Shown here piece after piece: positions 5,482-64,000 of a DNA stretch of 64,000 nucleotides (positions are counted from its first letter, which is position 1; the number at the start of each line of letters is the position of its first letter). The notes beneath the pieces were generated by a model. It had not been told where the DNA came from. It made no database searches and saw nothing but the letters and a program-made list of their open reading frames with translations. Made by a program: the position numbers and the translations under genes. Source of the stretch: Loxodes magnus (taxonomy: Eukaryota > Ciliophora > Karyorelictea > Loxodida > Loxodidae); the NCBI GenBank assembly GCA_946699065.1, contig CAMPDV010001540.1:37160-101159 (forward strand), given 5' to 3'.

Positions 5482-5729
5482 ATCGAGTGTTAAAATAATG
5501 AGTGAGAGTAGAATGATGCATAACTGAATAATAGTGTTTTGAATATATAGTTGTGATTGAAAATAATAATGGTAATTATTTAAAAAGGATTAGTGTTATT
5601 ACATTTGATTGGTTGAAATAGTAGTAATAAATTGGGTAGCACACTGCACTATAGATAATTATAAAAGGATAATTAATTTAAAATGCTAAAACATGTAAGA
5701 TGTTTATAAGATATCGTCCGTGTGGGAAT

Positions 5730-6040
5730 TTTAATACACGAGAATCATGCTGGAGAGTATGGCAGGTCATTCAAGTTTCTGTACTAACAGCTTTCGATTG
5801 TAGTGTATTGAATTACCATGGCAGTGACAGATAACAGAAAATTAGGGTTCGATTCCGGAGATGGAGCCTGATAGACGGCTACCACATCTAAGGAAGGCAG
5901 TAGGTGCACAAATTACCCAATCCTAACTGAGAGAGATAGTGACAAGAAATAACGACACCGGGCTTCGTCTCGGTGATTGGAATGATAACAACGTAAAAGC
6001 GTTAGCGAGAGCCCACTAGAGAGTAAGTCCTCCAATTTCG
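5730..6040 (+). pseudogene. 18S rRNA fragment, divergent
   Basis: About 300 bp with far higher GC than the flanks carries consecutive strings of the 5' domain of eukaryotic small-subunit rRNA in the right order: a CATTCAAGTTTCTG block near 5771, TTAGGGTTCGATTCCGGAG near 5842, GACGGCTACCACATCTAAGG near 5875, AAATTACCCAATCC near 5910 and AGTGACAAGAAATAACGA near 5938. It corresponds roughly to yeast 18S positions 300-550. It stops before the conserved GTGCCAGCAGCCGCGG block, which is absent. Several normally invariant positions are changed, so it is a fossil or a transferred piece, not a working rRNA. Ciliate micronuclei of the Tetrahymena type carry a single rDNA locus, so a stray fragment here is unusual. 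Confidence 0.8.
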
Positions 6041-12844: not shown

Positions 12845-13275
12845 TTTCTAATAAATTTGATATAAATAAATATGATTATAGAGCTCGTAGCACCTCGATG
12901 ACAAACAACTCTTTCTGTATTAATATTTAATATTAAAAAAATGCTCTAAAAAGCTTGATTTCATTCTATTCGTCCAAAGAGTCACTTCATCTTCTCGAAA
13001 TGGGGAATCTTCTTATTAAAAATTATTCTAACATCTTGAGTAAAATGCTTCAGTCTTCTTTAATAAGGTCCAAAAAAAATTATTTATTAAGTCATTAATT
13101 AGAAAACCTGTCAGTCAAACTTTCATACTGCTAGAGAGAACCCTCGCGGTAAGTTAGGCATGTCTCAACTGAGCTTATCCACCTTCCGTGTGGTGGCATC
13201 TAGTGCGAGATTACTCACAATACAGCATACATTGTATGAGATTACCTACTAGTTTTTCTGACTCGGCTGACATCC
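12845..13275 (-). repeat. Structured repeat Y, copy 1 (short retroposon-like)
   Basis: Read on the minus strand, this repeat has a GC-rich head (13126-13275) full of hairpins: CCACC/GGTGG at 13179-13196, CATAC/GTATG at 13226-13238 and CTCA/TGAG near 13164-13173. Its tail reads GTGCTACGAGCTCTATAATC and runs into ATTT-type simple repeat. The same tail sequence and the same kind of simple-repeat end occur at 32790-32860. A shared 3' end plus microsatellite tail is typical of SINE or LINE 3' ends. No clear Pol III A and B boxes were found, so the class is open. Confidence 0.5.
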
Positions 13276-15879: not shown

Positions 15880-17205
15880 TTAATTTAAATATAGGAAAAT
15901 AAAATTCAATCATAAAATTATATTTCAAAGATTTAAAAAGCGCTATTTTATTATTATTCAATTTGAACATTAAAATAAAATAAAATTTAAGTAATAAAAA
16001 TACAAAATACAAGTAAGATATAAATTTTAGATAGATTTATAATTTTATATGTTAATTATAAAAAATTTAATAATGCAAATATTGCAAGAGTGAATTTAAA
16101 TCAATAAATTTAGCTAAATATGAAAAGAATTTAATCTAAAAATATATAAAATTTTTAATTGAATTTTATTTAAATCTTTCAGATTAATGTTTATGCTAAA
16201 ATAATTTGAATTTTTAACTAAAAATATGTAACATTTTTATGAATATATTGAGATAAAATAAAAATGAAGGAAATAAATTTAGTATAATATTAAGAAATTT
16301 AAAAAATATTAAATATCCTCAAATTTTGCTATTTATTAAGTTTTAACAGTTATAATTTAAATAATCTACTTAATTTCGAAAATTAAAAATTAAGGATACT
16401 TTAATATAAGATAATAAAAATCGATTTGATTTTAAAAGTAAAATCTAATATATTAAAGTTAAGTTATAAAAAATAGTTAAAAATAATTTTTATATTTGTT
16501 TGAACAATCTTTTTTTCTTATTGATAGAAATTATCCATAATTTAATTTTAAGAATTTACTATTAGAACAATTTTGCGTCTTTAAAATTTAAAATAAATTT
16601 ATTTTTAAATATTATTATTCTTTAAATTATACCTAAAACGAAGTAAAAAAAGATAATATTACTTAAAACAGAAAAAAACTATAGTTAAAACTTGGCACTT
16701 ATGTTTAAGATAAGATTTTAATTTCTTTTTCTTATATATAGCAAGTTAAAAATTAATCAATATTCAGACAAAGTAGAGATATTTTTTCAATTATAATAAG
16801 AATTACTATTTCTATATGATTGATCCTTTCCAATTCCCTTGTCTGCTTTCTTCGTATCAATTACTCTAAATAAAATATTGATTCCAAATTCTAACTTAAA
16901 ATAGTAATAATATTAGATTATAAACTTTTTTTTCAATCTTTAAAGTGATAATCCAAACAAAGATGTTTTTGCTATTTATAAATTAATGTTATAAAAATTA
17001 AAATTTTAATTTTTAAATAAACATAATACTTTCCTTCAATAATTAATTTTAAGAAAGTTGTATTATAAATAATATTTTGTAGTTAAAAAATACATTTTTT
17101 AATTAAAAATATAGTTGAACATTTTTATTTTAATCTTTTTTCTTTGATTGTATTAAAATTTATTTAAAATTTAAATTAGATACTTAACAAACTTTATAAA
17201 TATAT
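15880..17205. other. A+T-rich stretch without recognisable genes
   Basis: Nothing with a recognisable motif was seen on either strand. Confidence 0.5.
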
Positions 17206-17590
17206 TAAAGTGGATCCACTTATTTAGGTTCACAACGATTAATAAAAGAAACCAAATTTTATTCTAAATAAAAATCTAGTAATGTTCTAGCTTCACCTGG
17301 TCTCTTTGTTCATTCTTTCTTATTTACTCAATTTTTTAAATCAAAATTGATTACCTTTTTTCTCTAATTACTTGTGAATAATTTTGAAAGTAGGAGTTAG
17401 AAGAGGTTAGAGTATAATCCATATTTGTGTCAAATGCCTCGGTCGAGTTGAATTCTTCTAAATAAATAAAAAATTATTTCTGATCTCACTAATAGTCATC
17501 AAAGCCACATCAGATTGACAACAAGTAAATGCAGGATAACTCTACGACCTGGATTTCAGTACTTCTAATCAGATTCACGTATTTAATAGA

Positions 17591-17817
17591 GTACTTTAAT
17601 TATTGTAATGTTGATTGAGGTGAAAAAATTGATAAGTAAATGTGTTATTAAAAGTCTTGATAATATTAAAAGTGAAACTTGAAATTTTGTTTGAAGTATT
17701 TTATGGCTTGTAACGTAGCTTCCCTAAAGAATATCATTGAGTACTTTAAATCCTGTATTGTTGATTATGGTGACAAAATTGATAAGTAAATATGTAATTA
17801 AAAGTCTTGATAATTTT
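17591..17817 (+). repeat. Tandem duplication inside repeat X
   Basis: The segment 17591-17667 is repeated at 17741-17817, offset 150 bp, with a few differences. Both begin GTACTTTAA and contain ATTGATAAGTAAAT and AAAAGTCTTGATAAT. The second unit forms the start of the ORF at 17737-18024. The second X copy at 36985 lacks this part. Confidence 0.75.
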
Positions 17818-18024
17818 AGTAAGGAAATTCAGAAGTTAGTTAATAGAGAGAATCCTCAAATAAATAAAATTTATATTGTAAAGAGCACGTTCTTACTTAT
17901 CCATGATGGTATCTATTATAAAAGTGCTTGTAATGCAATTCACACTGCACCAGATTACCTACTCGATAGACAAGAGCCTAATATCCATTTAAAAAATGAA
18001 TATATTATAGACTTAAAAAAGTAA
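17737..18024 (+). CDS. Small conserved ORF of repeat X
   Basis: The frame is open from upstream of 17737 through at least 95 residues to about 18036 with UAA read as Gln. The product contains KLISKYVIKSLDNF and LLIHDGIYYKSACNAIH. The second X copy (about 37380-37500) keeps LFIFDGIYYNDTCNSI in the same relative position, with differences concentrated at third codon positions, which indicates past selection on this frame. No family is recognised. There is no good ATG at the left end: TTG at 17737 is in frame, and the first Met codon is near 17770. Confidence 0.45.
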   Translation: MSTLNPVLLIMVTKLISKYVIKSLDNFSKEIQKLVNRENPQINKIYIVKSTFLLIHDGIYYKSACNAIHTAPDYLLDRQEPNIHLKNEYIIDLKK

Positions 18025-31387: not shown

Positions 31388-31402
31388 TGTACTTCTAGCA
31401 TT
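31388..31402. repeat. Target-site duplication, left copy (15 bp)
   Basis: TGTACTTCTAGCATT is identical to 32351-32365. The pair brackets the CCHC retroposon copy A. Confidence 0.9.
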
Positions 31403-32350
31403 ATAATAATAATAGGATAAATTAAGTTTAGAAATTATTGAGGATTTTCACCTCTTCATGCTGTACACCAGATTGCTCCGGCGTTAAAAATGAAATTTTA
31501 AAGGTCTCTCTTCCTCTCTCCTTCCACTGCTCATGTCATTTCCAATTCTATCTTTATTTCTAATCAGATTTTCTCTTGTAGATGAAACTTAATTCATTTA
31601 AGTATAATCTCTCTCTGATTTGTCTCTATTTCATTTGTTCTTTCTTCCTCTGCTGAGCTTGTATTATTCTTTATTTATTCCAATACTACGTCTTAAAATT
31701 TTGGAATTTCATGCAGCGTCTTCACAAGTGTTTTGTCGAATTGCAGTAGTAACAATTCTTCACTACTTTTTGTAGTTTAACCCTAGTCTTCATGTTGGTC
31801 TCTTCAATCATCATTGGATCTCCCCTTTGTTCATCTAGCTTCTTTTCCAATTTTTCCAGTCTGTAACTCAGATCAGATTGTTTCTGAAGCTAATTTTGGG
31901 ATTAGTTTATCTGGTCTTAGGATATGCTTCAGAAAGCGCTTAGTTCTCTTTCTTAGGACATAAGTCTGGATTCTATTCCTTCCGCTAGGCTGAGTTGTTC
32001 CATAAGCTTCTCATTATCCTTCCTCAGTTTCCTAACCTCTTCCTGGAGGTTCATTACCAATTTGATAAGCTACTCCATGCTCATCTGGCCAGAAGAATTA
32101 AATTCTGACACCTCCTGGTGAAGAGCAAACTTCATCTGTTTTCTTGGCTTTTCCTCCGATGTAGGACTTATTATATGAGTTGCTTTCTAGGATTTCTTTT
32201 GCTCTTCATATCCAGTTTGAATTTCAGGTTGTTAAGATTAAGAAGAAGGTTAAGGTTAAGAAAAAGACGACTGGCCAAGATTGGATTCAGGTTTCCTCTC
32301 CAACTTTTTGGAGGTGGTGTAGAAACCTCTTTTGAATCCTTCCATTTTTT
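31403..32350 (-). mobile_element. CCHC retroposon copy A (948 bp), best-defined insertion
   Basis: Bounded by perfect 15-bp duplications. Read on the minus strand it starts with A7 running straight into ATGG at 32345, so the start codon lies within 8 nt of the element end. The frame from 32345 stays open for 138 codons: S/Q-rich (QSSFSQPQPSSQ), then a coiled coil (NLQEEVRKLRKDNEKLMEQ). Further coiled coil (YRLEKLEKKLDEQ) and a zinc knuckle (NCYYCNSTKHL, then RRC, near 31710-31755) follow in the same phase. After the coding part comes the hairpin GAGG-TGAAAAT-CCTC (31440-31454), then CTAAACTTAATT and a TTA-type microsatellite tail. GC is about 42% against about 20% in the flanks. Duplications plus tail mark target-primed (LINE-driven) insertion. 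There are only a few interruptions. No RT is encoded. Confidence 0.85.
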
Positions 32351-32788: not shown

Positions 32789-33018
32789 ATATAAATAAAT
32801 AATAAATAAATTTGATTATAGAGCTCGTAGCACTCTCATTGGTGCGCAGCTCTTTAAAAAAAAAATTTCATACTGACAAGAATGTTTGTTACTGATAAAA
32901 TTATCAGATACTGATAAACCTTGTTCAATACTGATATAATTTTAGAATACTCGTAATCTTTAATACTTGCTGGAGGTCCAAGGACATGGCAGGATTATGT
33001 CTCATTGCATCACCAAAG

Positions 33019-33066
33019 CAGAGGACGACATGTGTCAATTATGGGTACTTAAATTCCCCATCTCTG
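33019..33066. ncRNA. Candidate three-way-junction RNA motif, copy a
   Basis: The closing stem CAGAG/CTCTG (33019-33023, 33062-33066) encloses GACA/TGTC (33025-33034) and GGG/CCC hairpins. A copy with compensatory or compatible changes lies about 158 bp away. No named RNA family is recognised. The strand is uncertain. Confidence 0.45.
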
Positions 33067-33176
33067 ATGAAGCTCGCAATATTATTTCTTTTTAGTTCCA
33101 GAATTGAATTAAATTAAATTTAAATTACGCCAGTCCCGAAGGTCTAAGAATCTTATGTCTCGAGGCCAAACCAAAG

Positions 33177-33226
33177 CAGAGGAAGACATAAAGTCGATTA
33201 TGGGTACTTAACTTCCCCAACCTCTG
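33177..33226. ncRNA. Candidate three-way-junction RNA motif, copy b
   Basis: The closing stem CAGAGG/CCTCTG (33177-33182, 33221-33226) encloses GAC/GTC and GGG/CCC hairpins in the same order as copy a. The sequence between the stems has changed while pairing is kept, which supports RNA structure. Confidence 0.45.
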
Positions 33227-36200: not shown

Positions 36201-36980
36201 AATATTTAAATTTAGCTTAAATCTTGTTTAGAAAAATATTTTTTAGTATAACATATGTTGTTATGCTTTTAAGAGAGAATAAGCAAGAAAAAATTAAAGG
36301 AAAATAATAGAATAAATTCCTATATATGTAATAATAAATAAATAGGTTAAATATTACAATTTTTTATCAAAATAACAAATTTTAATTTTGAATAATAGCT
36401 TAATTTCTATTAATATTTATACTTTTCAGCAATAGATCAATTACATAATTTCTTCCTTACAGTAGTTAATTTTTCATCTAGTTTCTTGATGTAAAGTATC
36501 TTTATTTTTCATTACTATTGGAAGTAAAAGGAAAATTAGTAAAAATTTGTAGATTTTCAATTTTCTAAATTTTTTTAATTTTTTAGTTGTTAATTTAAAG
36601 ATAAACTTATTATATTATCAAAATAAAGTTAAATATGTCTTGCAAAATTATCTCTTTGCTGTAAATTGCTTTAATTTTTAATTCTAAGTTGTAAGTTGTT
36701 TTTTTAAAATATAAGTTTAATACATTTCAATATAAAGAAAAAAATCTTTCTTTCTAAAAATCTAACATTTTAATCAGATTTTTTTTATAAATAAAGAGGA
36801 TTTAAAAGCAACTTAATCTCTATGAGGATTCATATTTAAAGCACTTTATTTTTAATATTTTTCTATTGATTAGAAAGGATTAAAGATTTATTCATAAGAT
36901 TATTAAACTGCTTTATTATAAGCGGTTAGTTTTAAAAATTATTAAATAATCTTTAAGTCTTATAAAGAGTAAACAAATAA
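33290..36980. other. A+T-rich stretch without recognisable genes
   Basis: About 3.7 kb with no motif-bearing frame. The short less A+T-rich patch near 34380-34450 shows no gene. Confidence 0.5.
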
Positions 36981-36984
36981 ATTA

Positions 36985-37545
36985 ACGTGGATCCACTTTT
37001 TTTAGGTTCACCATGATTAATAAAAGAAACCATTTTCTTAAAATATCTAGTAATATTCTAGCTTCACCCGGTCTCTTTGTTCATATTTTCTTCTTTTCTC
37101 TGTTTTTCAAATAAAAATTGATTGCCTTCTTTCTCAATTTCTTGTGAATGAGTCAGAAGGCAGGAGCTAGAAGCGATTAGGGAATAAGCCAATATTTGTG
37201 TTAAATAACACAGTCAAGTTAAATTCTTCTAGATATAAATTATTTCTGATCTCACTATATATTTAGGTTTTTCCAATTCCCGACCAGATTAACGAGATGT
37301 AAATCTGAGACAATATTTTAGTTTTTTTTAGTCAGATTCTCGTATCGATAGAGAGAAATATCAAATAAATAAGGGTGATCACACGAAGGGTACTTTATTA
37401 TTTATTTTTGATGGCATCTATTACAATGATACTTGTAATTCAATCTAAATTGCATAAGATTATCTATCGATTTACTAGAGCCCAACATCCATTTTAAAAA
37501 TGAATATATAATAATAGATTCAATAATTTAAAATTTAATTATAAT
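36985..37545. repeat. Repeat X, copy 2
   Basis: Starts with GTGGATCCAC, T-rich spacer and GGTTCACC, then matches 17211-17480 and the ORF end at 17880-18010. The middle, including the tandem duplication of copy 1, is missing. The conserved LFIFDGIYYNDTCNSI frame is broken here. Confidence 0.65.
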
Positions 37546-37739
37546 TATTAGCAATAATTATGAATAAATAAATATTATTTTATAAATCATAAGTTTAATT
37601 AAATTTCCAAAAGTATATTGTTCAAATTTAAAAAATTTTATTCTGATATAAGAGAAAAAATTTTATAAAAAACGAAGGCAAAGCAAATATCAAAAAAGAA
37701 CGACACCATATATTTAATAATAATAATATTAAACTAAAT

Positions 37740-38575
37740 GTAAAATAAAGATTTGAGTACTCTAAGCTTTCAATTATGTATTAGCGGATAATTTTTTTAG
37801 TGATTGTATTCCATTACCTTTTTTATAAATAGGTTGTTACCACAAAGGAATCTCTTAGTTTTTATGAGTAATTTTATTTATAAAGGCCTCCTTCAGTAAT
37901 TCAGAGCTTTAAAATTTTTCTGGTTCTTTGTTCTTCATTGTGCTTGAGTAGCCTTCATTTTTTGCAATGTCTTAGTATTTATATTTAGATTAACAGTATC
38001 AACAATTTTATTTTTGCACAACTTTCTTCTTTGGATAAATCTTTCTTTCTAACATCTCAATTCTTTTGCTTAGGTTTGAATCAATTCGTTCTTAACTTAA
38101 CTTAACTTAACTTTTCTTATTGCTGCTGCTAATGTAGATTTTCTTCTATAAATATTCTTTGAGATTATTTGAAATAGTTCTAAGACATTTAATAAAGTTA
38201 TTTCCTATTACTTAAACTGTTTTTTATCGGTTAACTTTTAAGAATTAAAAATTCATTATTTTGATCTTCTATGCAGTTCATTAATTCCTTGATTTTTTCT
38301 CTTAAATTAAAGAAAGTTTCTTGATACTTTGTAATTTATGCTTCTATTTGTTCAATTTAATTTAATTTTAGAGTAATTTGTTATATTGAGTTCCAAGATT
38401 AACTTATTCAGTAAGACCGACCATTACTTTTCTCTTTGAAGATGAGCTAGACTCTTGATTCTATCTTTGTTTTTTTAGCTCCTCATTAGTCGGTTACCTT
38501 CTTGCTTTCTTTTTAATTCTTAAAGAGACGGATATTCTATTATATTTTTTCCTTAATTAAGGTCACTTTATTAAT
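37740..38575 (-). mobile_element. CCHC retroposon copy B, decayed
   Basis: The minus strand retains the family protein in pieces: QESSSSSKRKVMVGLTEQ near 38450, then EKIKELMNCIEDQNNEFLIL near 38280. These align with SSSSSEGKVIIGTIE and EKIRELMNTIEDQNNELLII of copy C. The tail begins GTGGTAACAACC near 37850, resembles that of copy D and ends in ATT repeats at 37718-37735. Many breaks are present. A run of TAACT repeats lies at 38094-38114 inside it. Confidence 0.65.
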
Positions 38576-44428: not shown

Positions 44429-44440
44429 ATATTTAAAATT
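44429..44440. repeat. Target-site duplication, left copy (12 bp)
   Basis: ATATTTAAAATT, repeated at 45279-45290 around copy C. It is low in complexity, so weaker than the duplication of copy A. Confidence 0.65.
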
Positions 44441-45278
44441 AAAAAAAAAAAAAAATGGAATAATCTATTCGCCTTTCCAAAAACCAAATTAAGAACGCAA
44501 AAAGGAAAGCTGCGAAACTAATGCAGAAACAATAACAAGAAGAAGATAAATCAAGTTCCTCATCTGAAGGAAAAGTTATAATTGGAACAATAGAGACGAA
44601 TCCAGTAAAAGTACAAAAATAATCAGAAATCTAAATATAAATTGACTAAATGAAAACAATAATACAAAATTATTAGGAAACAATTTACAATCAAGGGGAA
44701 AAAATAAGAGAACTAATGAATACTATCGAAGATTAAAACAACGAGCTACTAATAATAAGACGACAATTGATTTAAAATAATTTAGTCACGGAATAGTAAC
44801 TATATGAATAATCTCAATCGAATTTTAAGCAAGAACAAAATATGATTATTGAAAAAGTTTCTACATAAACAAACATCCAAGAAAAATAGAATGACGAAAA
44901 GATTAATATAGAATTACTCCAAAGAATCGATTAACTTGAAAAAAAAGTATTTCTGAAGAGATTCAAGAAAAGACCAATCAAAAATTGCTATTATTGCAAA
45001 TCAAAGTGACACCTATTACAAAATTGCGATCAGTGGAGATAAATTTAGATGAAAGAACAACAAAGAACGTTAAGAATGCTTAGCAGACTCTGAATCACCG
45101 AAACGGGAATTTACAAGAAGAAGATATTCTTATAAAAGACAGAAGATTCTCAGTGGTTCCATCCACAAAAAAAAATGGCGTGGTATCCATCCACGCTAAA
45201 AAAATGGTAGCAAAAACCTGGTTGAAAATCCAGGGAATGCTAAACTTTAATTACTTTTAGTTTACTATATATATATAT
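44441..45278 (+). mobile_element. CCHC retroposon copy C (838 bp)
   Basis: An A-run leads directly into ATGG at 44455. The frame is open for 184 codons: a basic N-terminus (MEQSIRLSKNQIKNAKRK), an acidic and Ser-rich patch (EEDKSSSSSEG), a long coiled coil (EKIRELMNTIEDQNNELL) and a zinc knuckle starting at residue 178 (NCYYCKSK, then HLLQNC). The same phase continues for another 20 or so codons. The 3' end is a structured tail (45153-45234), then CTAAACTTTAATT and a TA microsatellite. Flanking 12-bp repeats and the simple tail indicate LINE-type insertion. It encodes no RT or nuclease. Confidence 0.82.
45153..45234 (+). repeat. Structured 3' tail of copy C: three hairpins with A-tract-TGG spacers
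   Basis: GTGG-TTCCAT-CCAC (45153-45166), A9-TGG, GCGTGG/CCACGC (45178-45196), A7-TGG, then CCTGG-TTGAAAAT-CCAGG (45217-45234). The last hairpin recurs with different stems but the same loop in copies A (31440-31454) and E (49521-49537). It is probably the RNA end recognised by the driving RT. Confidence 0.8.
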
Positions 45279-45290
45279 ATATTTAAAATT
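45279..45290. repeat. Target-site duplication, right copy (12 bp)
   Basis: ATATTTAAAATT, identical to 44429-44440, directly after the TA tail of copy C. Confidence 0.65.
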
Positions 45291-48179: not shown

Positions 48180-48375
48180 ATTCAAATAAAATATGAACAA
48201 CTGAATGAAGCTTCTATAAATAGAAGCAACTCATAAGAAATTTCGAAAATACTATGTGGTAGTCATACTTTTATAAAAAAGATAGTGTAATGCAACCACG
48301 AAAAAAATTGTTCGCATATAATTGACTGTTTATCCAGGGAACACTAAACTATAATTTATATTTTACTAAAATAAA
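48180..48375 (+). mobile_element. CCHC retroposon copy D, 3' end only
   Basis: A 5'-truncated copy. It has a hairpin GCTTCTAT-AA-ATAGAAGC (about 48209-48226), then GTGGTAGTCATAC...TAATGCAACCACG and ATCCAGGGAACACTAAACTATAATT, aligned with the tail of copy C (ATCCAGGGAATGCTAAACTTTAATT). The final hairpin stem is only half kept. Confidence 0.65.
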
Positions 48376-49429: not shown

Positions 49430-50440
49430 AGTAGGTCTGAAAAAACTTGTAAAATCGATCATGCTTTTTTTAAAGATTTGTTATTAATATCAATCTAAAA
49501 TTTAAGAAATGTATTCTTTCCTTGGATTTTCAACCAGTTCCAGTTGTCCATTTTTTATCGAGGCTGGAATTCATCGACCATTTTTTTATGTGAATGGTTA
49601 CCACTTCTCCATCTTGCTTAAGTCACTTTTTCTCAAATCTTATATTTATAAACTCTATTACTATTTAAAAAAAACTTCTAATTTAATTTTTTCAGGTTCT
49701 CTAGTCCTCTTGTCTATTACATTTTTTGAAATAAAAGTATTTTTTTATTAATTGTTAGGTAGATTTGCAATATCAACACCTCTTTATTTTCTATTTTTAA
49801 TTTTAGAAAGATTATTTAGCTGAATGAAAGGATTAGAAAGAAAGTGCGAGGAAAAGAAAAACTTTTAAATACAGGATAACATATTTAATTGAAGAAAGCA
49901 AATCCAATAATGAAAAGATATTAAAAACTCTTTTAAGTTAATCTTTACTTGAAAGAAGGAATTTCTCAAATTTTTTCAAACTTCTTGCTTCTTCAATTCT
50001 TTAAATTTCTATTTAAGTATTTAATTGATTAGTTGTGATATCAGTCTTATTTTCTTCAGTAACAGTAAGAATTTCTTCTATTGGGTTGAATTAAAATTAA
50101 GGCCTAAGTTTTTTCTGTTAAGGTTTTTTTAAGCAAGAACTTTTTTAATTACTTGCTTCTAAATTTAATTATTTTTAATTCCATCATTAATTTAATTATT
50201 TTCTATAATATTACAGACTAGCTCTTCTTTCTTTCAGATTTTTCTTTAATTTATCACTTTACCAATGAATGAATTCATTTTACTATTTGATTATTATGAT
50301 TCTGTCCTAATTACCTTGCATTATTTTTCCTTGACTTTATGATGAAGATTCTTTAGCTTTTATTTTTTCTCTTCAAGTCTTATTTATCATCCAGTCTTTA
50401 TTTTTTATGTTTTTCATACTTATTTTATCCATTTTTTTAA
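49430..50440 (-). mobile_element. CCHC retroposon copy E, decayed
   Basis: In minus orientation it starts with A-run plus ATGG at 50432 (MDKISMKNIKNKD). It continues through KAKESSSQSQGKIMQG, aligned with copy C, and a coil (TTNQLNTQIEIQRIEEARSL near 50000). The knuckle is not recognisable. The tail at 49480-49610 repeats the family layout: a hairpin beginning GTGG, A7-TGG, a TCGA/TCGA stem, A6-TGG, then CTGG-TTGAAAAT-CCAAG (49521-49537). Several breaks are present. Confidence 0.65.
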
Positions 50441-59218: not shown

Positions 59219-62200
59219 TTTTAATATACTTTTAATACTTTAATATACTTTAATATACTTTAATATACTTTAATATACTTTAATATACTTTAATATACTT
59301 TAATATACTTTAATATACTTTAATATACTTTAATATACTTAATATACTTTAATATACTTTAATATACTTTAATATACTTTAATATACTTTAATATACTTT
59401 AATATACTTTAATATACTTTAATATACTTTAATATACTTTAATATACTTTAATATACTTTAATATACTTTAATATACTTTAATATACTTCAATATACTTT
59501 AATATACTTTAATATACTTTAATATACTTTAATATACTTTAATATACTTTAATATACTTTAATATACTTTAATATACTTTAATATACTTTAATATACTTT
59601 AATATACTTTAATATACTTTAATATACTTTAATATACTTTAATATACTTTAATATACTTTAATATACTTTAATATACTTTAATATACTTTAATATACTTT
59701 AATATACTTTAATATACTTTAATATACTTTAATATACTTTAATATACTTTAATATACTTTAATATACTTTAATATACTTTAATATACTTTAATATACTTT
59801 AATATACTTTAATATACTTTAATATACTTTAATATACTTTAATATACTTTAATATACTTTAATATACTTTAATATACTTTAATATACTTTAATATACTTT
59901 AATATACTTTAATATACTTTAATATACTTTAATATACTTTAATATACTTTAATATACTTTAATATACTTTAATATACTTTAATATACTTTAATATACTTT
60001 AATATACTTTAATATACTTTAATATACTTTAAATACTTTAATATACTTTAATATACTTTAATATACTTTAATATACTTTAATATACTTTAATATTTTAAA
60101 TACTTTAATACTTTAATATACTTTAATATACTTTAATATACTTTAATATACTTTAATATACTTTAATATACTTTAATATACTTTAATATACTTTAATACT
60201 TTAATATACTTTAATATACTTTAATATACTTTAATATACTTTAATATACTTTAATATACTTTAATATACTTTAATATACTTTAATATACTTTAATATACT
60301 TTAATATACTTTAATATACTTTAATATACTTTAATATACTTTAATATACTTTAATATACTTTAATATACTTTAATATACTTTAATATACTTTTATATACT
60401 TTAATAATATACTTTAATATACTTTAATATACTTTAATATACTTTAATATACTTTAATATACTTTAATATACTTTAATATACTTTAATATACTTTAATAT
60501 ACTTTAATATACTTTAATATACTTTAATATACTTTAATATACTTTAATATACTTTAATATACTTTAATATACTTTAATATACTTTAATATACTTTAATAT
60601 ACTTTAATATACTTTAATATACTTTAATATACTTTAATATACTTTAATATACTTTAATATACTTTAATATACTTTAATATACTTTAATATACTTTAATAT
60701 ACTTTAATATACTTTAATATACTTTAATATACTTTAATATACTTTAATATACTTTAATATACTTTAATATACTTTAATATACTTTAATATACTTTAATAT
60801 ACTTTAATATACTTTAATATACTTTAATATACTTTAATATACTTTTAATATACTTTTAATATACTTTAATATACTTTAATATACTTTAATATACTTTAAT
60901 ATACTTTAATATACTTTAATATACTTTAATATACTTTAATATACTTTAATATACTTTAATATACTTTAATATACTTTAATATACTTTAATATACTTTAAT
61001 ATACTTTAATATACTTTAATATACTTTAATATACTTTAATATACTTTAATATACTTTAATATACTTTAATATACTTTAATATACTTTAATATACTTTAAT
61101 ATACTTTAATATACTTAATATATATACTTTTATATACTTTAATATACTTTAATATACTTTAATATACTTTAATATACTTTAATATACTTTAATATACTTT
61201 AATATACTTTAATATACTTTAATATACTTTAATATACTTTAATATACTTTAATATACTTTAATATACTTTAATATACTTTAATATACTTTAATATACTTT
61301 AATATACTTTAATATACTTTAATATACTTTAATATACTTTAATATACTTTAATATACTTTAATATACTTTAATATACTTTAATATACTTTAATATACTTT
61401 AATATACTTTAATATACTTTAATATACTTTAATATACTTTAATATACTTTAATATACTTTAATATACTTTAATATACTTTAATATACTTTAATATACTTT
61501 AATATACTTTAATATACTTTAATATACTTTAATATACTTTAATATACTTTAATATACTTTAATATACTTTAATATACTTTAATATACTTTTTACTTTAAT
61601 ATACTTTAATATACTTTAATATACTTTAATATACTTTTAATATACTTTAATATACTTTAATATACTTTAATATACTTTAATATACTTTAATATACTTTAA
61701 TATACTTTAATATACTTTAATATACTTTAATATACTTTAATATACTTTAATATACTTTAATATACTTTAATATACTTTAATATACTTTAATATACTTTAA
61801 TATACTTTAATATACTTTAATATACTTTAATATACTTTAATATACTTTAATATACTTTAATATACTTTAATATACTTTAATATACTTTAATATACTTTAA
61901 TATACTTTAATATACTTTAATATACTTTAATATACTTTAATATACTTTAATATACTTTAATATACTTTAATATACTTTAATATACTTTAATATACTTTAA
62001 TATACTTTAATATACTTTAATATACTTTAATATACTTTAATATACTTTAATATACTTTAATATTTAATATACTTTAATATACTTTAATATACTTTAATAT
62101 ACTTTAATATACTTTAATATACTTTAATATACTTTAATATACTTTAATATATATACTTTAATATATATACTTTAATATACTTTAATATACTTTAATATAC

Positions 62201-64000
62201 TTTTAATATACTTTAATATACTTTAATATACTTTAATATACTTTAATATACTTTAATATACTTTAATATACTTTAATATACTTTAATATACTTTAATATA
62301 CTTTAATATACTTTAATATACTTTAATATACTTTAATATACTTTAATATACTTTAATATACTTTAATATACTTTAATATACTTTAATATACTTTAATATA
62401 CTTTAATATACTTTAATATACTTTAATATACTTTAATATACTTTAATATACTTTAATATACTTTAATATACTTTAATATACTTTAATATACTTTAATATA
62501 CTTTAATATACTTTAATATACTTTAATATACTTTAATATACTTTAATATACTTTAATATACTTTAATATACTTTAATATACTTTAATATACTTTAATATA
62601 CTTTAATATACTTTAATATACTTTAATATACTTTAATATACTTTAATATACTTTAATATACTTTAATATACTTTAATACTTTATATACTTTAATATACTT
62701 TAATATACTTTAATATACTTTAATATACTTTAATATACTTTAATATACTTTAATATACTTTAATACTTTAATATACTTTAATATACTTTAATATACTTTA
62801 ATATACTTTAATATACTTTAATATACTTTAATATACTTTAATATACTTTAATATACTTTAATATACTTTAATATACTTTAATATACTTTAATATACTTTA
62901 ATATACTTTAATATACTTTAATATACTTTAATATACTTTAATATACTTTAATATACTTTAATATACTTTAATATACTTTAATATACTTTAATATACTTTA
63001 ATATACTTTAATATACTTTAATATACTTTAATATACTTTAATATACTTTAATATACTTTAATATACTTTAATATACTTTAATATACTTTAATATACTTTT
63101 AATACTTTAATATACTTTAATATACTTTAATATACTTTAATATACTTTAATATACTTTAATATACTTTAATATACTTTAATATACTTTAATATACTTTAA
63201 TATACTTTAATATACTTTAATATACTTTAATATACTTTAATATACTTTAATATACTTTAATATACTTTAATATACTTTTAATACTTTAATATACTTTAAT
63301 ATACTTTACTTTAATATACTTTAATATACTTTAATATACTTTAATATACTTTAATATACTTTAATATACTTTAATATACTTTACTTTAATATACTTTAAT
63401 ATACTTTAATATACTTTAATATACTTTAATATACTTTAATATACTTTAATATACTTTAATATACTTTAATATACTTTAATATACTTTAATATACTTTAAT
63501 ATACTTTAATATACTTTAATATACTTTAATATACTTTAATATACTTTAATATACTTTAATATACTTTAATATACTTTAATATACTTTAATATACTTTAAT
63601 ATACTTTAATATACTTTAATATACTTTAATATACTTTAATATACTTTAATATACTTTAATATACTTTAATATACTTTAATATACTTTAATATACTTTAAT
63701 ATACTTTAATATACTTTAATATACTTTATATACTTTATATATACTTTAATATACTTTAATATACTTTAATATACTTTAATATACTTTAATATACTTTAAT
63801 ATACTTTAATATACTTTAATATACTTTAATATACTTTAATATACTTTAATATACTTTAATATACTTTAATATACTTTAATATACTTTAATATACTTTAAT
63901 ATACTTTAATATACTTTAATATACTTTAATATACTTTAATATACTTTAATATACTTTAATATACTTTAATATACTTTAATATACTTTAATATACTTTAAT
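59219..64000. repeat. 10-bp satellite (AATATACTTT)n, at least 4.78 kb
   Basis: Nearly uniform copies of AATATACTTT run to the window end, about 475 units. Irregularities are almost all length changes (AATACTTT, AATATATATACTTT, ACTTTTAAT). Substitutions are very rare, for example one C at 59490. The unit equals about one helical turn. The array may be centromeric or heterochromatic satellite; its true length is unknown because it is cut by the window. Confidence 0.95.

Follow-up and report, generated by a model that had tools for sequence, protein, structure and literature searches.

To our knowledge, retroposons that encode only an ORF1- or Gag-type protein have been described in few lineages (HAL1, HeT-A), and SINEs have no protein gene. 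HAL1 is non-autonomous and encodes only ORF1p (PMC5753468), and HeT-A encodes Gag and lacks pol, the RT of TART having been proposed to act for it (PMC4467039). SINEs are thought to be mobilised in trans via a 3′ end that they have in common with a partner LINE (PMC3747384). The LINE repeats rnd-1_family-27 and rnd-1_family-19 of Loxodes magnus carry EN and RT, and we met no ORF1-only family in the paper that describes them, whose main text has 0 occurrences of “ORF1” (PMC11441545). Titles and abstract openings in the open-licence PMC literature, supplements excluded, name no such family in any ciliate.

We analysed a 64-kb stretch of L. magnus DNA (the window) and describe here an element at 44441-45278 which, with its genome-wide family, we call the half-LINE. 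In our reading, to which we give a probability of roughly 85%, the half-LINE is a non-LTR retroposon that is not autonomous: its sole coding product is a gag/ORF1-like, putative RNA-binding protein, and it is copied in a cycle with the EN-RT of a LINE. Its features are:

44429-44440, no strand: left target-site duplication (TSD), ATATTTAAAATT
44441-44455, plus: 5′ A-run of 15 A, the last being that of the start codon (length 4-38 in 15 copies across the genome)
44455-45222, plus: ORF of 256 codons, gag/ORF1-like (NCBI table 27; dN/dS)
44455-44547, plus: basic N-terminal helix, residues 1-31 (ORF translation, structure model)
44551-44565, plus: Ser patch SSSSS, residues 33-37 (ORF translation)
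44602-44967, plus: one long helix, residues 50-171 (mostly pLDDT above 85; coiled coil by reading)
44986-45027, plus: knuckle CYYCKSKWHLLQNC, CX2CX4HX4C (W = TGA at 45007)
45091-45093, plus: second in-frame TGA, also decoded as Trp (the selection test still sees coding signal downstream)
45153-45166, plus: 3′ hairpin 1 (folding)
45176-45198, plus: 3′ hairpin 2 (folding)
45208-45242, plus: 3′ hairpin 3, two stacked helices (folding)
45223-45225, plus: TGA within the hairpin 3 loop, probable stop codon
45253-45265, plus: 3′-terminal motif ACTTTTAGTTTAC (kept in relatives, partly common to the LINE family LINE-B)
45266-45278, plus: (TA)n terminal repeat, 3′ end of the half-LINE
45279-45290, no strand: right TSD, ATATTTAAAATT

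The limits of the element are exact, being set by the flanking 12-bp TSD, and coincide with the interval given in the initial annotation. TSDs of 12-16 bp are found in 15/15 copies with both flanks available (mean 14.1, versus 6.5 and at most 15 in mismatched-flank controls). With variable-length TSDs and a simple-repeat 3′ end, the half-LINE is a non-LTR retroposon, a product of target-primed reverse transcription. One copy (L095; C40, from 799850) is 3′-truncated, stops at element nt 418 without the tail, and is flanked by a 17-bp TSD by eye: since it has a TSD though tail-less, the tail is not absolutely required. Its end at nt 418 may reflect priming inside the RNA. The variable A-run lies exactly between TSD and start codon and could be either a poly(A) leader or slippage as reverse transcription ends. 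A start of A-run plus ATGG tends to recur among LINE, half-LINE and SINE-like elements (L039 at oriented position 1296, and in the window 32350 minus, 44441, and 12.9, 17 and 37 kb).

The genome searched comprises 705,730,643 bases in 7,843 contigs, with table 27 used for coding. The best 40 scored of 3,184 first-look candidates all span 831-838 of the 838 nt at ~100% identity, so the half-LINE is not a chance stretch. Across the genome we count 576 exact 5′ ends (5′-end 24-mer) and 429 matches to the tail core, or 551 to a looser 33-nt pattern with six free positions. Among the matches listed, we paired 97 tails on contigs C2-C130 with 100 5′ ends; three tails beyond C130 were left out, the listed 5′ ends stopping there. 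An exact 5′ end lies upstream of 85 of the 97 tails, at 694-775 nt in 84 cases and at 1,610 nt in one, whose 845 extra nt are placed by position only. The 12 tails with no listed 5′ end comprise 11 that were read, all with the ORF upstream (from nt 439 in L070, with an internal deletion in L078), and one that is full length in a genome match. At least 85 of the 97 tails thus belong to full-length copies. All 97 are on the half-LINE ORF and none is on a same-strand RT (85 by position, 12 read or aligned). Of the 15 unpaired 5′ ends, one had its tail recovered among the tail-core matches, and for the other 14 we read the region where the tail should lie. It is present in 11, at 72-98% identity; L083 matches the half-LINE for 76 nt and then stops, L091/L096 is a relative of about 75% whose tail has diverged, and the last is the truncated L095.

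Searches of 43 half-LINE loci with five LINE proteins returned a single RT match, a Fam2-like fragment at L097 61-509 (minus) on C97. This fragment has the opposite orientation and lies outside the right TSD of the ~75% L096 element, so it is a neighbour of that element. A 24-residue LINE-B match lies in the flank of the half-LINE at L054. The initial annotation had described the copies as lacking an RT, and this holds on the half-LINE strand (for 85 of the 97 tails by position only): copies do not routinely run on into an RT, the sole one seen being the opposite-strand L097. Without an RT in the element the half-LINE is not an autonomous LINE, and must borrow its copying enzyme from another mobile element.

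Within the window a family profile finds three significant copies (44455+, 38545- and 49826-). Besides the half-LINE at 44441-45278, the following stretches, two of these copies among them, are related or alike:

37731-38545, minus: diverged, decayed relative, 34% aa identity (profile, protein comparison)
49492-49826, minus: diverged relative, C-terminal part and tail (profile)
48257-48353, plus: weak tail match, E 8e-4 (profile)
31402-32350, minus: separate element built in the same way, with an A-run, a knuckle, a hairpin tail and a 14-bp TSD

The last of these matches the half-LINE in tblastn (E 3e-11, without composition correction) and gives no match to the half-LINE family profile. The figure of about ten copies in the initial annotation, named there by letter, is not supported: a profile search of the window gives three clear homologues and one weak tail. 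That annotation had also placed the family in the germline. We take the assembly to be the L. magnus MAC assembly, described as 706 Mbp (PMC11441545), and the same paper reports no extensive DNA elimination, so restriction to the germline is not implied. Elsewhere in the window are an SSU rRNA fragment (5639-5943; Rfam microsporidia model, 79 bits) and a long AATATACTTT tandem repeat (about 59250-64000).

The ORF is under purifying selection. By the Nei-Gojobori method with table 27, against the copy at 44441-45278 and over nt 0-636 unless stated, dN/dS in the ORF frame is 0.15 for L058, 0.17 for L096, 0.13 for L042 and 0.15 for the 38.5-kb relative, versus 0.51-1.14 in the other frames of the same four pairs. 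The distant relative F50 gives 0.34 on 44 codons (other frames 1.58 and 1.13). Three partial old copies behave otherwise (ORF frame/+1 frame: L075 0.45/0.35, L077 0.48/0.48, L078 0.27/0.21): here the ORF frame has no advantage over a second frame, which counts against selection in these copies. L057, L070 and L085 had too few changes and were left out. Within the AACGC type, four copies match a fifth, L052, at 99.8-100% identity over 829-831 nt, and a second half-LINE type has 167 tail matches at ≤1 mismatch; the sub-families apparently contain young copies.

RT matches in the genome contain in-frame TAA, TAG and TGA, and in the half-LINE TGA encodes Trp even within the knuckle, which reads CYYCKSK(W)HLLQNC in translation, (W) being TGA 45007. 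We considered this TGA as a decay stop and rejected the idea, as the same TGA is present in L058, L042, L071, L075 and L077; L096 has an Arg codon in its place. The ORF continues past the knuckle into a conserved C-terminus. Beyond the second TGA at 45091 (nt 636-741), dN/dS is 0.12 for L094, 0.17 for L042, 0.19 for both L096 and L089, 0.25 for L088, 0.36 for each of L058, L090 and L092, 0.37 for the 38.5-kb relative and 0.41 for L075 and L077, and exceeds 1 in two distant relatives (L045 1.35, F50 1.26). The ORF therefore runs into what had been called the tail and probably stops at TGA 45223, which leaves 53 nt to the end of the element. This agrees with what is published for L. magnus, namely a 3′UTR that averages 53 bp and UGA as the sole stop (PMC11441545). 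This TGA is changed in 3/10 aligned sequences (L088, L089, L091).

The basic N-terminus, Ser patch and coiled coil listed in the initial annotation are all present in the ORF translation or structure model. Its CCHC knuckle stands as a CX2CX4HX4C motif, complete only with TGA 45007 as Trp, and does not stand as a Pfam domain: a Pfam search of the protein gives nothing credible, and the knuckle no zf-CCHC match. Comparison with solved structures returned only weak matches (E 0.04 or more). An AlphaFold2 model made without an alignment (mean pLDDT 70.6) has helices at 2-31 and 50-171, the remainder being low-confidence. It contains no strands, and hence the protein as modelled would have no RRM-like domain. 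Rfam gives no match at gathering score over the half-LINE, and one weak sub-threshold match on the other strand.

The folded 3′ tail is borne out by comparison with shuffles: none of 200 is as stable as the last 93 nt (z = -3.8), and 1/200 is as stable as the last 173 nt. Two of the three hairpins are wholly inside the ORF and the third partly. Across ten family sequences, 80.3% of cells pair versus 30-45% when the structure is slid, and 128/500 shuffles pair as well as the real hairpins. Covariation is not above shuffles, the one pair changed on both sides being reached by 491/500. The sequence of the hairpins is conserved, but covariation does not prove their pairing.

We considered which LINE could supply the enzyme. 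Fam1 (L039) and Fam2 (L040) each have an RT plus an ORF1 with CX2CX4HX4C, and an EN, by Pfam match in Fam2 and by eye in Fam1. Their tails are also borne by SINE-like elements in the window, two of which gave no credible Rfam match when tested alone; tail sharing therefore occurs here:

12862-13250, minus: SINE-like, no clear ORF, outer limits approximate; Fam1 tail at 12862-12900
32795-33200, minus: SINE-like, no clear ORF, outer limits approximate; Fam1 tail at 32795-32861
17152-18010, minus: SINE-like, no clear ORF, outer limits approximate; Fam2 tail at 17152-17308
36970-37520, minus: SINE-like, no clear ORF, outer limits approximate; Fam2 tail at 36970-37079

The half-LINE tail is neither that of Fam1 nor that of Fam2. 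The initial annotation had looked to a LINE with an identical tail to name the driver, and the five LINE 3′ ends that were read all lack it. Since we found no LINE bearing this tail, mobilisation of the half-LINE in trans is something we infer. The LINE relatives L047-L049 have up to 6.9 kb in common, including an inverted segment that matches the RT region of L050, and L047-L050 appear to be composite or rearranged repeats.

The best candidate driver, not proven, appears to be LINE-B (in L051), which has an APE-type EN and an RT in one frame and whose 3′ end consists of a hairpin, TTTTAGTTTA and (AATTTA)n, while half-LINE 3′ ends have TTTWAGTTTA ahead of the terminal repeat. The LINE-B end fits the half-LINE terminal profile with a shuffle P of 0.0017 (0.0018 and 0.0066 for two sub-profiles), versus 0.04, 0.32, 0.68 and 0.35 for four other LINE families, the motif having been picked post hoc, after being seen, with five families tested. 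Both families are young and similar in number (404 exact LINE-B 3′ ends genome-wide, 551 half-LINE tails), and a 13-bp TSD was seen by eye in the single LINE-B copy that was read on both sides. Two of 100 listed LINE-B ends are <1 kb from one of 99 listed half-LINE tails, where 0.12 are expected, but such adjacency may reflect target preference, as the half-LINE in L052 lies directly downstream of a Fam1-type tail. At C147:437700-438800 a half-LINE copy stops 48 nt ahead of a match to the LINE-B 3′-end pattern. Against LINE-B also stands that the hairpins upstream of the motif differ. We would put this refinement of our reading, that LINE-B drives the family, at slightly short of even odds. 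A uniform 5′ end had suggested that LINE-B lacks an ORF1; we rejected this, as 9/9 other copies extend upstream with one common sequence, and L051 is therefore 5′-truncated. No zf-CCHC (PF00098) was found beside known LINE-B copies among the best 150 of 4,473 candidates.

The driver may instead be another LINE, outside those read, that bears the full hairpin tail, a genuine if not the likelier possibility: long tails are shared here, by Fam1 and Fam2 with SINE-like elements, and Fam1, Fam2 and LINE-B share no long tail with the half-LINE. An equally young driver should, however, have a near-identical tail, and 97/97 checked tails are on the half-LINE ORF. It is unlikely, though conceivable, that the gag-like protein and the EN-RT are two components of one split retrotransposon, carried like a multipartite genome on separate, similarly abundant elements with a common 3′-terminal recognition motif, each kept coding by selection.

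That Fam1 drives the half-LINE is quite improbable. Fam1 too opens with an A-run followed by ATGG, and a 65-nt stretch at its 5′ end matches the start of the 32.3-kb element at 78% identity, but its tail is different and 11 copies show no average TSD signal (mean match 7.4 versus 6.75 in controls; longest 11 nt, also reached by controls), against 15/15 in the half-LINE. The half-LINE knuckle matches Fam1 ORF1 weakly (36% over 39 aa, E 0.017), and the half-LINE protein gives no credible match to Fam2 ORF1. The ATG of the Fam1 A-run/ATGG start is in a different frame from its CCHC ORF1, and a hairpin with seemingly compensatory changes, by eye only, is common to the 5′ ends of these two elements, Fam1 and that at 32.3 kb. 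Least credible of all, half-LINEs could be retrocopies (processed pseudogenes) of a host gene, as short untranslated ends and a single ORF would allow, but they fall into several sub-families, each multi-copy, whose ends and TSDs are alike, number in the hundreds, diverge down to 34% aa identity while the ORF stays under selection, and end in (TA)n or (TTA)n rather than poly(A).

We therefore return to a retroposon copied by the EN-RT of a LINE. In the cycle we propose, half-LINE RNA would be translated, and the protein would multimerise through its coiled coil and bind RNA, preferably its own, via the basic helix and knuckle. The folded 3′ end with the terminal TTTTAGTTTA and (TA)n may then be recognised by the EN-RT of a LINE, which would nick AT-rich DNA and copy the RNA by target-primed reverse transcription, insertion leaving the 12-16 bp TSDs observed. 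As selection keeps the ORF, the protein presumably helps the RNA that encodes it. The family offers a natural experiment on whether the action of an ORF1-like protein on its own RNA suffices to win a foreign RT: it is young, with several hundred mostly full-length copies in a karyorelict ciliate and diverged sub-families that keep the ORF, and it also has TGA = Trp codons inside a zinc-knuckle motif.

How, then, does the half-LINE compare with known systems? The L. magnus LINEs rnd-1_family-27 and -19 have EN and RT, whereas it is an ORF1-only element. It resembles SINEs in its proposed trans mobilisation and differs from them in that its ORF is under selection; nor does it show the small-RNA-derived head and lack of an ORF that define a SINE, the ORF being selected and Rfam giving no match at gathering score. 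What had been noted from the letters of the locus is partly confirmed, and its interpretation as a HAL1-like family partly supported. The functional likeness holds (an ORF1/gag-only element with TSDs and an ORF under selection), and a genealogical one would be at most putative, no LINE with a clearly homologous ORF1 and tail having been found: HAL1 is a derivative of L1, whereas a parent LINE of the half-LINE was not found. L1 ORF1p has an RRM, whereas the model of the half-LINE protein has no strand-bearing domain. HeT-A Gag has a zinc knuckle, and the element is specific to telomeres, with an oligo(A) end. The half-LINE likewise has a gag-like ORF with a knuckle motif, under selection though unscored by Pfam, and no pol, but it has TSDs and a (TA)n end. 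HeT-A and HAL1 are functional analogues of the half-LINE.
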